Source: Gammaproteobacteria bacterium
GTDB lineage: Bacteria > Pseudomonadota > Gammaproteobacteria > Thiohalomonadales > Thiohalomonadaceae
NCBI GenBank assembly: GCA_024709225.1
Contig: JANJXC010000013.1
Location: forward strand, 1-64,000
DNA length: 64,000 bases
Direction of reading: 5' to 3'
Shown here one piece after another: positions 14,953 through 20,983 of the stretch (its first letter is position 1; the number at the start of each line of letters is the position of its first letter). The notes under the pieces are model-generated. The model was not told the DNA's origin. It saw only the letters and a program-made list of their open reading frames with translations, and made no database searches. Both the position numbers and the translations under genes were made by a program.

Positions 14953-14988
14953 TTTGATGTAGGGCACGCACCGTGCACATCAGGTTTT

Positions 14989-15549
14989 GTAGGAGCGAAT
15001 CGTATTCGCGATGGGGGTGGCACCGACCGGCGCTGTATCGCGGATGCCATCCGCTCCTACGGGTCCGTCGCGTTTGGTAGGAGCGAATCGTATTCGCGAT
15101 GGGGGTGGCTCTGACCGGCGCTGTATCGCGGATGCCATCCGCTCCTACGGGGACCGGCCCGTTTGGTAGGCGCGAATCGTATTCGCGATGGGGGTGGCTC
15201 CGTCCGGCGCTGTATCGCGGATGCCATCCGCTCCTACGGGGACCGTCCCGTTTGGTAGGAGCGAATCGTATTCGCGATTGGTGGTGGCTCCGCCCGGCGC
15301 CGTATCGCGGATGCCATCCGCTCCTACGGGTCCGTCGCGTTTGGTAGGAGCGAATCGTAATCGCGATTGGGGGTGGCTCCGACCGGCGCTGTATCGCGGA
15401 TGCCATCCGCTCCTACGGGGACCGTCCCGTTTGGTAGGAGCGAATCGTATTCGCGATGGGGGGTGGCTCCGTCCGGCGCTGTATCGCGGATGCCATCCGC
15501 TCCTACGGGTACCGGCGCGTTTGGTAGGAGCGAATCGTATTCGCGATGG
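14989..15549. repeat. Tandem array of about 6.3 copies of an 88-90 bp REP/BIME-like unit between pstB and phoU
   Basis: GTAGGAGCGAATCGTATTCGCGAT...TATCGCGGATGCCATCCGCTCCTAC units starting at 14989, 15077, 15166, 15255, 15344, 15434, 15524; each unit self-complementary. Confidence 0.95.
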
Positions 15550-15696
15550 GAAGATGGCGCCGCCATGCAGGCGAGCACGCGGAGCAAAACATATTTGTAG
15601 GGCGGGCTTCAGCCCGCCGGCAGCGGCAACGGGAACACCCGCACCGCTTACAAGGGCAACGACAACACGCGTATCCAGCGAGAAGGAACCGCAGCA

Positions 15697-16413
15697 ATGG
15701 ACAAGATGAGTATCGGTCAGCACATTTCCCAACAGTTCAACGCCGAGCTGGAGGACATCCGTACGCGCGTGCTGAACATGGGCGGCCTGGTCGAGCAGCA
15801 GCTCGCCGACGCCCTGACTGCGGTGATGGATGAAAACACCGAACTGGCCGAACTGGTGATCAACGGCGACCTCAAGGTCAACGCCATGGAGGTGAACATC
15901 GACGAGGAATGCTCGCGCATCCTGGCCCGCCGCCAGCCCGCCGCCAGCGACCTGCGCCTGATCGTCGCCGTGATCAAGACCATCACCGACCTGGAGCGCT
16001 GCGGCGATCAGGCTGAGCGCGTGGCCAGCATCGCCATGCGCCTCACCGGCGGGCGCGAGAACCGCAACCACTACGAAGACCTGGTTCACCTCGGCAATCA
16101 CGTGCGCCAGTTGTTGCACGACGCCCTCGATGCCTTCGCCCGCATGGACCCGGAGGCGGCCGTGCAGGTGGCGCGCGACGACATCAACGTCGACAAGGAA
16201 TACGACGCCCTGACCCGCCAGCTCATCACCTACATGATGGAAGACCCGCGCACCATCACCCGCTCCCTCGACGTGCTGTGGGCCGCCCGCGCCCTGGAGC
16301 GCATCGGCGACCATGCCCGCAACATCTGCGAATACGTCGTCTATCTGGTACGCGGCAAGGACGTGCGCCATGTGTCGCTGGATCAGATGGAGGAGGAGGC
16401 GCGGAAGCGCTGA
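15697..16413 (+). CDS. phoU: Phosphate signalling complex protein PhoU
   Basis: ISQQFNAELEDIRTRVLNMGGLVEQQL...RRQPAASDLRLIVAVIKTITDLERCGDQAERVA. Confidence 0.95.
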   Translation: MDKMSIGQHISQQFNAELEDIRTRVLNMGGLVEQQLADALTAVMDENTELAELVINGDLKVNAMEVNIDEECSRILARRQPAASDLRLIVAVIKTITDLERCGDQAERVASIAMRLTGGRENRNHYEDLVHLGNHVRQLLHDALDAFARMDPEAAVQVARDDINVDKEYDALTRQLITYMMEDPRTITRSLDVLWAARALERIGDHARNICEYVVYLVRGKDVRHVSLDQMEEEARKR

Positions 16414-16819
16414 CTCGGTGGCGCGGAAGCGCCGCTGTTCTTGCCCCTCCGCTCAGGTAGGTTGGGCTGACGCAGGATGCCCAACATCGTGATGGCGAGG
16501 GTGTAAGGTGCGCTTCGCGCGCTGAGTATTTATGCGGGGAGCCGCCCCGCGCGCGGGTCACTTTACGAAGTCCATCCTTGGACTTCGCCCTCCGGGCCAG
16601 CCTGCGGCTGTTCCAATTCGCTCCCGGCGAATTGGTCTTTGTCCCGCCAAAGAAAGTAACCAAAGAAAGTCGGCCCGACTGCCACGCCCTGCGGGTTCAT
16701 TCGGCACATCCCTGTGCCTCACCCTTCGGGCAGCCTGCGGCTGTGCGAATCGGCTGGCCTGCCGATTCGTCCCTGCGCTTATCGCCCGAATCGGCGCTCG
16801 CCTACGCGCCATCCCTGGC

Positions 16820-17295
16820 GCGAAGGCGAGGACCTGCCATCCATGGCATGTCCCCTGTGGGCTCAATCCGATTCGGGCTGCGATGCTCGACGCGGCAAAC
16901 GGGAACCAACCCGGCTCGCCTGCGGCATTGCGCGGTTGGCGTGCGCTTCGCGCACGCAGGGAAAACCCGGAAATGTAGGTTGGGTTCGCCTGATAAGGCG
17001 TAACCCAACATGACGTTGGCTGTTGGGCTTCGTACCTCAGCCCAACCTACCTGCTGACGGCGAAAGATTCGCCATCCATGACGCATCCCCTGCGGGCCTG
17101 CCCGTTTTGAACTGCGCTACTCGGCGAGACAAAAGGGGTTGAAAGCCAAACCCGGCTCGCCTGCGGCATCGCGCGGGTCACGCACGCTTCGCGCACACAA
17201 GGAAACCCCGGAAATGCAGGTCGGATTGGCCTGATAAGGCCTAACCCAACATGATGTTGGTTGTTGGGTCGCATATCTCAGCCAAATCTGCAGGC
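16820..17295. repeat. Two diverged tandem copies (about 235 bp each) of a non-coding repeat
   Basis: 16820-17053 and 17060-17295 share gccatccatg..catcccctg.ggg, cccggctcgcctgcggcat.gcgcggg, gaaaccccggaaatg.aggt.ggat...ctgataaggc.taacccaacatga.gttgg. Confidence 0.75.
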
Positions 17296-17515
17296 CAAAC
17301 CCGGCAAAGTTTGCATTATTTTCCTGTCCGGGCTATGGTTCGGACCAATTCCCCCGGTAGTCACTGCGACGTTTTGAAGCCGACATGCACGCACGTGTTT
17401 TGATCCATCGAGCCTGTTCTCCCGCCTTTCTCATTTGAGCCAGGCGCCTGATGGCGCCTGGCTTGCTCCCCCGTTTCTATCATTCTTCATTCCCGCCAAT
17501 TCCTTTGGAGGGTTT

Positions 17516-17908
17516 ATGTCGCCTGTCGAACGATTGAGGTCGTATATGACTTACTACCTGAGAAAGATCGAGCAGTACTGCATGCTCAACAGTGTCAACC
17601 TTTTCCTGAGCCCCCTCGCGCTGCAGGACGTCCTGCTCAAGCTGGAGCGGATGCAGGAGGACAGCAGTAACGACGCCGATATCCCCAATGTGTCGCGGAT
17701 CGGCTCCCTGGTGCGGTTGATCGACCTGCACGATGGCACGGTGGTGGTGTTTGAACTGGCCTTGCCGGAACAGAGCGACCCGCAGCGTGGCCTGTTGTCG
17801 GTTCTGTCGCCCCTGGGATCGGCCATGCTCGGCAAGAAAGTGGGTGACAAGGTTGAAGTGTCGTTATTCGGCTATCGCCATTCCTACGTGGTGCACAACG
17901 TGTCGTAG
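17516..17908 (+). CDS. GreA/GreB C-terminal-domain protein (Rnk-like)
   Basis: SRIGSLVRLIDLHDGTVVVFELALPEQ...LSVLSPLGSAMLGKKVGDKVEVSLFG; GGAGG RBS before ATG at 17516. Confidence 0.75.
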   Translation: MSPVERLRSYMTYYLRKIEQYCMLNSVNLFLSPLALQDVLLKLERMQEDSSNDADIPNVSRIGSLVRLIDLHDGTVVVFELALPEQSDPQRGLLSVLSPLGSAMLGKKVGDKVEVSLFGYRHSYVVHNVS

Positions 17909-18056
17909 ACACGCACGGCGCCATCCAGCAGAGGAGGATACGAGCATTGCACCCGCAAGCCTGCCGCCAACGTCACGTCGGATATCCAATCGCCCCCGCG
18001 GGCCGCACGCACGGCGGCACGTGATGCCCCCCGGGGGCCAAATCAGAGTGAGCGAT

Positions 18057-18152
18057 ATGAGCAAGGAAAACGTGAAAAAGGCACCGCAAAAGACGCCGAA
18101 GGAAAAGAAGGCGGAGAAACGCGAAAAGCGGCAGAAAAAGTCCAGGGACTGA
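18057..18152 (+). CDS. 31-aa Lys/Arg-rich microprotein candidate
   Basis: MSKENVKKAPQKTPKEKKAEKREKRQKKSRD, immediately followed by a strong terminator. Confidence 0.5.
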   Translation: MSKENVKKAPQKTPKEKKAEKREKRQKKSRD

Positions 18153-18158
18153 TCGCAA

Positions 18159-18184
18159 GCGGGCGCCTCGGGCGCCCGCTTTTC
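18159..18184 (+). terminator. Rho-independent terminator
   Basis: GCGGGCGCC-TCG-GGCGCCCGC followed by TTTTCT. Confidence 0.85.
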
Positions 18185-18215
18185 TCAAGGGATGAGTCCC
18201 TTGGTGGATTTCTGG

Positions 18216-18407
18216 CTATTTGACCTTCAGAACGCCGAGGACGATACACACAGCGCCGCCGACCATGCCCAGCCACGCCTCTATCGGCGTATCTCCGCTG
18301 ATGGCACGCCCCAATTTTGACGCCGCTGAGTCATAAACGTCGTAACCCCAAAATGCCAAGGAAACGCCTACCACAATAAGAATTATGCCAATGAGTTTTT
18401 TGTTCAT
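18216..18407 (-). CDS. Small two-TM protein, DUF3185-like
   Basis: MNKKLIGIILIVVGVSLAFWGYDVYDSAASKLGRAISGDTPIEAWLGMVGGAVCIVLGVLKVK. Confidence 0.75.
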   Translation of the reverse strand: MNKKLIGIILIVVGVSLAFWGYDVYDSAASKLGRAISGDTPIEAWLGMVGGAVCIVLGVLKVK

Positions 18408-18540
18408 CGTTCTCCCTTACTCTGAAGTTGTTACTCTGACACCGATTTCCAATTTATCCGTGGTCTGTCCCAGCGAACTTCGCCGCGCTCTGAACATGTG
18501 ATAAATCCCAGGTACGCTGCATTGCAGGGTTAGCTTTCAC

Positions 18541-19287
18541 CTAGTGGACAGTGACTATGATTGGAGCGCCACGCGTAACAATAATGGTGTGTTCAAATTG
18601 AGCCGAAAGATTGCCGGGTGCTCCGACTAAGGTCCAACCATCTTCGGATTCCGAAACCGTTCTGCTCTTCGTGGACAGAAAGGGTTCAATCGCAATAACC
18701 ATACCCTCTCGTAGCACACGGCGGTCATGAGGGTCGAAAAACCCGAGGATGTGTTCAGGTTCTTCGTGGATCGCTCTTCCCACGCCGTGCCCTCCAAGGT
18801 TCTCGATGATTCTCAACCGGTGGGTACTCGCGACACTTTGAATGGCGCGGCCAATTTGATTAATCGGCTGACCAGCTCTCGCTACTCGAATTGCCGCAGA
18901 TAGTGCCGTGCGAGTGGCGTGACAAAGCTTCGTCTTGATCGGTGTGGTTGGCGGGACAATCTTCGATCCTCCAGTGTCGGCAAAATAGCCATCTAACTCG
19001 GCGGAGACATCAACATTTACGACGTCGCCCGCTTTGATTACTCGATTGCCGGGAACGCCGTGCGCTGCCTCTTCATTAACACTTATGCAAGTGTTCCCGG
19101 GAAATCCATAAGCTAACTGGGGTGCTGAGCGCGCCCCATACTGGGAGAGCAGCCTCCCCCCGATAGCATCGAGCTCCTCGGTAGTCATCCCTGGCTCGAT
19201 AGAATCAAGCATCTTATGAAGAACAATGGATACGACGCTACCGATGCGTTGTAGAGCAACGATGTCCGCTTGAGTTTCAATGGTCAT
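18541..19287 (-). CDS. Type I methionine aminopeptidase (accessory copy)
   Basis: LAYGFPGNTCISVNEEAAHGVPGNRVIKAGDVVNVDVSAELDGYFADTG...NLGGHGVGRAIHEEP...GMVIAIEPFL...QFEHTIIVT; metal ligands intact. Confidence 0.88.
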   Translation of the reverse strand: MTIETQADIVALQRIGSVVSIVLHKMLDSIEPGMTTEELDAIGGRLLSQYGARSAPQLAYGFPGNTCISVNEEAAHGVPGNRVIKAGDVVNVDVSAELDGYFADTGGSKIVPPTTPIKTKLCHATRTALSAAIRVARAGQPINQIGRAIQSVASTHRLRIIENLGGHGVGRAIHEEPEHILGFFDPHDRRVLREGMVIAIEPFLSTKSRTVSESEDGWTLVGAPGNLSAQFEHTIIVTRGAPIIVTVH

Positions 19288-19303
19288 AGATGGTGCCTGT
19301 GAA

Positions 19304-19370
19304 AGCTAACGTGTGAATTTGCCGGTCTGCGCGGCTTTTCGCGCAGATCCGGTGGAATGATGAGTTATAA
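19304..19370 (-). other. attC-like integron recombination site candidate
   Basis: Minus strand TTATAACTCATCATTCCACCGGATCTGCGCGAAAAGCCGCGCAGACCGGCAAATTCACACGTTAGCT: AAC...GTT termini and stem CCGG(A)TCTGCGCG/CGCGCAGACCGG with one unpaired A. Confidence 0.65.
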
Positions 19371-19409
19371 CTGCTGCAGTCAAGGTTGGCTCGGCTGCCG
19401 CTCTACAAG

Positions 19410-19457
19410 GAGTTCGTGGTCAGAGTAAAAACACCCCGGCGCAATGTCAAAGCGGTC
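19410..19457. repeat. 48-bp direct repeat, copy 1, flanking accessory two-gene module
   Basis: gagttcgtggtcagagtaaaaacaccccggcgcaatgtcaaagcggtc; 46/48 identity to 20909-20956. Confidence 0.92.
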
Positions 19458-19465
19458 AAAGTATT

Positions 19466-19513
19466 AAAGGGGTCAGTACCCTTAAGCCAAGTTTAAGGGT
19501 ACTGACCCCTTTT
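19466..19513. terminator. Perfect 20-bp-stem hairpin, terminator-like
   Basis: AAAGGGGTCAGTACCCTTAA...TTAAGGGTACTGACCCCTTTT. Confidence 0.6.
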
Positions 19514-19543
19514 GTTGTTCCTCCCTGCTCAATTGTTCCATTG

Positions 19544-20302
19544 TTATGCTTTAACCTTAGACAAAATCAGCTGCTCGGCTTCCAACTTACCTTTTGGAGA
19601 CAGCACGCAGGTACCGTCTGCCTTGTATTCAATTAGCCTCTTTGCGTGTAGCTGTTTCAGAAGCTTCCTAAAATAACCTTTATCCTTAGCCTCTATGATC
19701 GACATAAGCTTGTCTTCAGTGCTCGTATCAGTGGAAACCAATAAAAACAATATCTGCTCTTTTAGGCTAAGTCCGTCGACTAATATTCTGGTAACTTCGC
19801 CTTGCTCCCAAACACCTTCAACATCCCGCTCTACTATGTGGTCTACAATTTTTGATGTCTCGTCAGCTGACAATGTCGAGTTCAATCTAATTAATTCTGC
19901 AAGGACCCATTTGGCGGATGCGATAATATATGTTGCGTCTAGATAATTCGGAGCAATCAGTGATACATGTCCAACACCGCGTTTGTTGCGAATGCCGTAG
20001 ATGGACAATAATACCCTGGGAATGTGGATGCGGTATGAATCGTCACCACTTTCATTCAAGTACGCCTGCATCGTCTTGTCATTAAAAGACGACAGAGACT
20101 TCCCTATTGGTGTGTACTTTCCGTTAAGACGGAGTTCAATAAATCGCCTTACAGCCTCAACGAAGTGGCCGGCATCTAGCTCGCTAGTCTTCCATTGTTT
20201 AACAAAGTAATGTTTTTCGACCTCTTTGTACGAATCAATAATCAGATTAGCGAGATCTGAATCAGATGCCTGCTCAATTATTGCGAGGACTTTACTCTCC
20301 AT
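19544..20302 (-). CDS. Hypothetical protein, possibly HEPN/Abi_C-like
   Basis: 252-aa intact ORF, lower GC; segment LLSIYGIRNKRGVGHVSLIAPNYLDATYIIASAKWVLAELIRL contains R-x6-H. Confidence 0.7.
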   Translation of the reverse strand: MESKVLAIIEQASDSDLANLIIDSYKEVEKHYFVKQWKTSELDAGHFVEAVRRFIELRLNGKYTPIGKSLSSFNDKTMQAYLNESGDDSYRIHIPRVLLSIYGIRNKRGVGHVSLIAPNYLDATYIIASAKWVLAELIRLNSTLSADETSKIVDHIVERDVEGVWEQGEVTRILVDGLSLKEQILFLLVSTDTSTEDKLMSIIEAKDKGYFRKLLKQLHAKRLIEYKADGTCVLSPKGKLEAEQLILSKVKA

Positions 20303-20864
20303 TAAGGTCTTCCAGAAGCTCTTCGGCTCGCTCGACTCCAGGCAAAGTTAGCTTACATGTTTGAGCTGATGAACCCTTTTTTCCATCGATTATTATGTAC
20401 TCTCTAGCACCTTTCATTGTTGATGAAAAATTACTCGAGTCTAAGCAGCCCTGATGCTGGCATAGGTCTCGAATTTCTTGATAAGGCACCCCTTCTACAC
20501 CGACAGACCGCTTTCCCCATAAATATGCCAAAGCTGTATTGACAGACTTCTTCGCATTATTGGCGCCAGGCATCTTCTTGATAATCTTTACGCTCTTGTC
20601 TTCGATATGGAGAACTCTTGGAAATGACTTTTTATCGAACCCATGCTCCGACTTAGCACCCTCGGGCAACTTGGCCGCAGCGGGAGGCGCATCGTCGTTG
20701 CCAGTAGATGTGGCACCGGGTTTCTGAACTCCTTTATTTTGCAAGGCCTCCAGAATAATCTCTTTGAAATTCTCGATCTGTTGCGAAACAAATAACTCAG
20801 ATCCTGATATCTCAAAAACTCCCTCGGCAAGAGATAGGTGCAGTTTTGCTTCAGAATTACTCAT
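20292..20864 (-). CDS. Hypothetical protein with C-terminal winged-helix-like region
   Basis: 190-aa intact ORF; overlaps downstream gene by 11 nt; N-term KLHLSLAEGVFEISGSELFVSQQIENFKEII, C-term YQEIRDLCQHQGCLDSSNFSSTMKGAREYIIIDGKKG...KLTLPGVERAEELL. Confidence 0.75.
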   Translation of the reverse strand: MSNSEAKLHLSLAEGVFEISGSELFVSQQIENFKEIILEALQNKGVQKPGATSTGNDDAPPAAAKLPEGAKSEHGFDKKSFPRVLHIEDKSVKIIKKMPGANNAKKSVNTALAYLWGKRSVGVEGVPYQEIRDLCQHQGCLDSSNFSSTMKGAREYIIIDGKKGSSAQTCKLTLPGVERAEELLEDLNGE

Positions 20865-20908
20865 GAAATTCCTCCTAAGTTGAACGAGTTCGGGGTAACG
20901 AGTTCGGC

Positions 20909-20956
20909 GAGTTCGGGGTCAGAGTAAAAACTCCCCGGCGCAATGTCAAAGCGGTC
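20909..20956. repeat. 48-bp direct repeat, copy 2
   Basis: gagttcggggtcagagtaaaaactccccggcgcaatgtcaaagcggtc. Confidence 0.92.
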
Positions 20957-20983
20957 CGCACGAGGGCAGGCCACAGATGGCTC

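Follow-up and report, generated by a model that had tools for sequence, protein, structure and literature searches.

HEPN domains have been characterized by an Rx4-6H motif, a polar residue (mostly N, D, or H) after the arginine, and an E-x3-[KR] motif (PMC3710099). HEPN-MNT toxin–antitoxin systems place the HEPN protein second in a compact pair and its partner first, and an antitoxin-first argument has been made for HEPN pairs in general, while AbiJ, AbiU2, AbiV, and AbiD/AbiF are HEPN effectors and predicted RNases carried in accessory DNA (PMC3710099). Abi_C (PF14355) and DUF4145 (PF13643) also belong to the HEPN superfamily. A different principle is represented by Panacea (PanA), a hyperpromiscuous antitoxin network in which one conserved partner occurs with different effectors (PMC10440598).

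The locus considered here has features in common with all these systems. It lies in a window of 64,000 nt, i.e., positions 1 to 64,000 of contig JANJXC010000013.1 (assembly GCA_024709225.1) from a gammaproteobacterium of the family Thiohalomonadaceae, and comprises two genes, designated A and B:

20885..20915, minus strand: CGAACTCG in three copies ahead of A, a candidate operator
20871..20876, minus strand: ribosome-binding site of A, AGGAGG, read from the sequence
20292..20864, minus strand: gene A, first of the pair, an intact ORF encoding a partner protein of 190 aa
20292..20302, minus strand: 11-nt overlap of the A stop and the B start, ATGGAGAGTAA, read from the sequence
19544..20302, minus strand: gene B, an intact ORF of 252 aa from an eight-member family, most likely of HEPN type, with a winged helix at the C-terminus

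The initial sequence-only reading had described two intact genes on the same strand with an 11-nt overlap and a GC content below that of the surroundings. Both ORFs are indeed found as described, and the GC of the pair is 0.438 vs 0.645 for the window, which is the minimum among all its 1321-nt stretches. The candidate operator contains 3 of the 11 copies of CGAACTCG in the window within 31 nt (20885–20915).

Judging from sequence, we consider it rather probable that this cassette of two genes moves horizontally and acts as a toxin–antitoxin or abortive-infection module composed of a HEPN RNase (B) and a regulatory partner (A). The partner-first layout, the tight junction, the HEPN protein in second place, mobility, patchiness, and partner exchange all fit this reading. 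Three regions of B are of importance here:

19883..20242, minus strand: HEPN region of B, approximately residues 21–140, matching the Abi_C profile over 113–115 columns
19967..19990, minus strand: R105-N-K-R-G-V-G-H112 (Rx6H), with H112 and R108 invariant and R105 present in six of eight members
19553..19771, minus strand: winged-helix region of B, approximately residues 178–250, with weak matches in several members at the same place

The IRNKRGVGH stretch noticed at the outset occupies residues 104–112, and the spacing R105-x6-H112 falls within the Rx4-6H range of HEPN domains. The conservation expected of its arginine and histidine is only partly observed: H112 is retained by all eight members of the alignment, as is R108, but R105 by six, alanine being found instead in L003 and L027, and thus some members may be non-catalytic or may rely on R108. 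The residue after the motif arginine is N106 in the window and N or S in the members retaining R105. The E-x3-[KR] motif is represented by E49-x3-R53 and is kept in seven of the eight members, while the invariant positions include G45, F47, E49, Y102, R108, H112, D122, W132, E136, and R139.

The relationship of B to known HEPN families was assessed by profile–profile alignment (hhalign), with Abi_C and DUF4145 proteins from the same class as comparison sets. B aligned with Abi_C at a score of 32.6–33.1 (E 1.5–1.8e-4) over the 113–115 columns, the RN...H motifs of both being aligned with each other, while column-shuffled controls did not exceed 15.1 (40 shuffles) and the reversed profile gave 16.6. 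The score of B against DUF4145 was 23.8; Abi_C and DUF4145, accepted HEPN cousins, scored 36.7 against each other by the same method. Because the Abi_C score is far over both kinds of controls and the motifs are in register, membership of B in the HEPN superfamily is most likely, as a relative of Abi_C outside that family. The HEPN-like character proposed for B initially is thereby backed by both family conservation and profile comparison. B and Abi_C have in common R-N-x5-H with the same spacing within a co-linear match, but the Abi_C Pfam model misses B (nothing at E up to 1, so the gathering cut-off is not reached), and B differs in its C-terminal winged helix and in being preceded by A. 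The DUF4145 Pfam model gave no match to B either.

The C-terminal region of B in several members weakly matches MarR, HTH_27, and other winged-helix models, and the only PADLOC match of B (PDLC01879, E 8.5e-4) is confined to residues 178–242. Since these matches, though weak, fall consistently at the same place across members, they support the winged helix placed there by the sequence-only reading. One further match, in L004, covers 66 aa of the B C-terminus with one stop, and was set aside as a stray winged-helix match. AlphaFold2 models of A and B, built from two-sequence alignments, are of poor confidence, with a mean pLDDT of 43–45; the B model (43) is mostly helical.

Protein A falls into two recognizable parts:

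20736..20864, minus strand: A residues 1–43, strand-strand-helix segment (KLHLSL..GVFEISGSE.FVSQQI), with the pattern conserved in L059, L002, and L011
20301..20567, minus strand: A residues 100–188, winged-helix-like half, predicted as H-H-H-strand-H with low confidence, common to the A-like protein of L060

The N-terminal segment is predicted as E-E-H, also with low confidence, and relatives differ in the N-terminal part of the first gene. That A ends in a winged-helix-like region, as was initially proposed, agrees with the low-confidence prediction and with the conserved pattern, but no Pfam HTH model matches A. Profile comparisons did not firmly unify the winged-helix half of A with those of the small upstream proteins in L027, L028, and L064 and of the effectors (best score 19.9 vs 16.7 shuffled).

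Winged-helix-like regions in both A and B could mean that the two proteins form a non-toxic regulatory pair, where B would be an inert HEPN RNA-binding protein and both would regulate transcription or RNA via their winged helices. Loss of R105 from two B relatives would suit such a pair, and inactive HEPN regulators, e.g., part of the MtlR family, have been described (PMC3710099). We nevertheless regard it as quite unlikely: the invariance of H112 and R108 in eight diverse members, together with retention of E-x3-[KR] in seven, points to an active site in B. The effector is moreover swapped with other HEPN types, and the patchy distribution and mobility are unlike those of a housekeeping regulator.

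If the cassette is instead a toxin–antitoxin or abortive-infection module, it may work as follows. A would be translated first from a shared transcript, with its translation coupled to that of B through the overlap, and would keep B, presumably a HEPN endoribonuclease carrying its own winged helix, inactive within a complex. The operon would be repressed by A via its winged-helix half, while the N-terminal segment of A may sense the trigger. Once A is lost or altered, e.g., upon phage infection or loss of the element, B would cut RNA and growth would stop; protection from phages may be the benefit of such a response.

Neither protein is covered by the family libraries: A and B had no match in Pfam or NCBIfam and no significant match in PDB, while PHROGs gave insignificant matches for A alone and no significant ones for either protein. 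PADLOC-DB contains no model for the system, and none matches across B apart from the C-terminal PDLC01879 match. The cassette resembles AbiJ, AbiU2, AbiV, and AbiD/AbiF in carrying a HEPN effector in accessory DNA, but has no Pfam or PADLOC match to them. Likewise, it has the order of genes seen in HEPN-MNT pairs, but its partner A has no nucleotidyltransferase match in Pfam or PDB. A word-based (not sequence-based) search of open-access papers found no description of the A–B pair.

Relatives of B were sought by protein and profile searches on samples of whole genomes and were found in approximately 1% of the genomes sampled (L002, L003, L010, L027, and L028). An IMG/VR contig, L011, carries a relative with 46% identity, and a plasmid of the haloarchaeon Natronomonas encodes one more, matched by several family members. 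Scans of genome contigs, viral contigs, and phages with the single B sequence gave no relatives. Among the seven bacterial loci of B, the preceding gene and B overlap by 14, 11, 11, 8, 4, or 1 nt or are separated by a 9-nt gap. A compact two-gene operon with the partner first and an overlapping or tight junction, a general trait of type II toxin–antitoxin systems, is found in the window, L002, and L011. The two-gene form is not universal, since three small genes stand ahead of B in L003 and L027 and two in L028.

The upstream protein is related to A in L002 (40% identity) and in L011 (26–28%), and thus the suggestion that A and B form a pair is strengthened by other genomes in which their relatives occur together with the same gene order. 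The protein preceding B in L010 looks similar to A by pattern and position, with no significant match by blastp, and the one in L028 resembles A by pattern and position only. On the Natronomonas plasmid, there is no A upstream of the B relative; on its downstream side, adjoining a transposase, is a short segment resembling the N-terminal part of A. One could suppose that A and B are fortuitous neighbours, i.e., unrelated mobile genes with no joint function, given that the partner differs between genomes and that L003 and L005 have no homologue of A or only an unclear one. This is very improbable: in the window, L002, and L011, A stands ahead of B and the junction is overlapping, at 27–45% identity, and the alternative partners of A are again of HEPN type.

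These alternative partners are the chief addition to what had been noticed from the sequence. The closest relative of A (56.6% identity by blastp) is found in genome G180 (L059), where it is followed after 23 nt not by B but by a 242-aa DUF4145 protein (Pfam 30.3 bits, cut-off 23.1). DUF4145 thus takes the place of B beside an A that is 57% identical, yet B is only weakly similar to it (the score of 23.8 above), and the extra segment of the L059 protein is N-terminal rather than C-terminal. In genome G130 (L060), the first protein shares the second half of A (32% over 109 aa, E 6e-9), and the product of the second gene, 241 aa long, has LRNGCGH close to the C-terminal end. An effector distantly related to it (21%, E 1.4e-12) is encoded on an Ochrobactrum plasmid (L064) in the same two-gene layout. 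The L060 and L064 effectors are labelled HEPN by the RN...H motif and context, their HEPN half giving nothing significant against the Abi_C, DUF4145, and B profiles.

The Ochrobactrum pair (plasmid pLM19O1, L064:2207-3573) consists of two genes both annotated as hypothetical, the second with RNMAAH, and adjoins VapBC and a site-specific integrase.

The presence of different second genes beside the A relatives in L059 and L060 implies that the second gene is exchangeable. These second genes have a HEPN-type motif in common, and winged-helix-like segments can be discerned in them by eye. A close relative of A standing beside a different HEPN protein suggests that the toxin or phage-defence module is of a mix-and-match kind. 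More tentatively, with somewhat less than an even chance of being correct, A may represent a class of winged-helix partners, as yet without a name, that are promiscuous and control HEPN ribonucleases of interchangeable types (Abi_C-like, DUF4145, and a third RN...H type) in a modular toxin–antitoxin or abortive-infection family uncatalogued in the family and defence libraries searched. As in Panacea, one conserved partner would then be combined with different effectors, but A has no Pfam match, and the effectors swapped here are all of HEPN type rather than of unrelated folds. If A does control several HEPN enzymes, nature would offer here a compact case of partners being exchanged around a single RNase fold, and A could be used as bait for HEPN toxins missed by Pfam and defence databases.

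The borders of the cassette, described as mobile-like in the initial reading, are marked by repeats:

20909..20956, no strand: 48-nt direct repeat, upstream copy, from repeat comparison
19410..19457, no strand: 48-nt direct repeat, downstream copy, from repeat comparison
19466..19512, no strand: 20-bp perfect inverted repeat (hairpin) downstream of B, a possible terminator or REP-like element, from repeat analysis

The direct repeats bracket A and B, are 96% identical, and have a spacing of 1499; their 40-nt core occurs nowhere else in the 2.9-Mb assembly, which bears out the mobile-like appearance. At the loci of genus relatives, no single copy of the 48-nt repeat was found. Three of these relatives (G014, G015, and G017) retain the flanking genes toward phoU and toward hlyD at approximately 90% identity, with unrelated content between them. 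In genome G815 (L031:6722-9628), direct repeats of 125 nt enclose the module, which adjoins tRNA-Arg(cct); the opposite side carries an inverted copy of the tRNA 3′ end, and there is no integrase between the repeats. In each of the five relatives for which it was measured, the GC of the module is lower than that of the DNA around it.

Defence-island enrichment had been named initially as a check on the proposed anti-phage role; the chromosomal modules in G178, G561, G778, and G815 are not near known defence genes, being solitary among housekeeping genes. Such a setting, together with the relatives on plasmids and the lack of a PADLOC model, would also suit a plain addiction-type toxin–antitoxin pair with the same biochemistry, which would only stabilize its mobile carrier DNA, giving no protection from phages. 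We hold this to be unlikely, as the module is also cargo of L011, a phage-like contig with endolysin, tail, DNA methyltransferase, and UmuD/DNA-polymerase genes, and the variable N-terminal segment of A exceeds the needs of a minimal antitoxin. Phage-like contigs are a common place for anti-phage genes.

Several minor features of the region deserve mention. GGGGTCA...TGACCCC hairpins lie 3′ of B in two genomes (L006:10850-10891 and window 19466–19512) and could be dispersed REP-like elements or terminators. The interval from phoU to the HlyD-type efflux gene (window ~16400–20980; L022, L023, and L024) is a variable spot in the genus. Judged by eye, G015 has a HigBA-like pair there, G014 encodes a small membrane protein, and G017 a large CheB/CheR-PAS-GGDEF-EAL-like protein, while in the window the interval contains the A–B cassette and a type I methionine aminopeptidase. 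The latter is a stand-alone gene (18541–19287, minus strand; TIGR00500 above cut-off) of intermediate GC, flanked by a 12-nt perfect inverted repeat (18529–18540 and 19299–19310). An integron-cassette origin of this gene, considered on account of the flanking GTTAGC/GCTAAC inverted repeat, was rejected, no attC-like structure being visible downstream by eye. Just upstream of phoU, positions 14984–15550 are occupied by a tandem array of an 89-nt unit in 6.4 copies with 92% matches.
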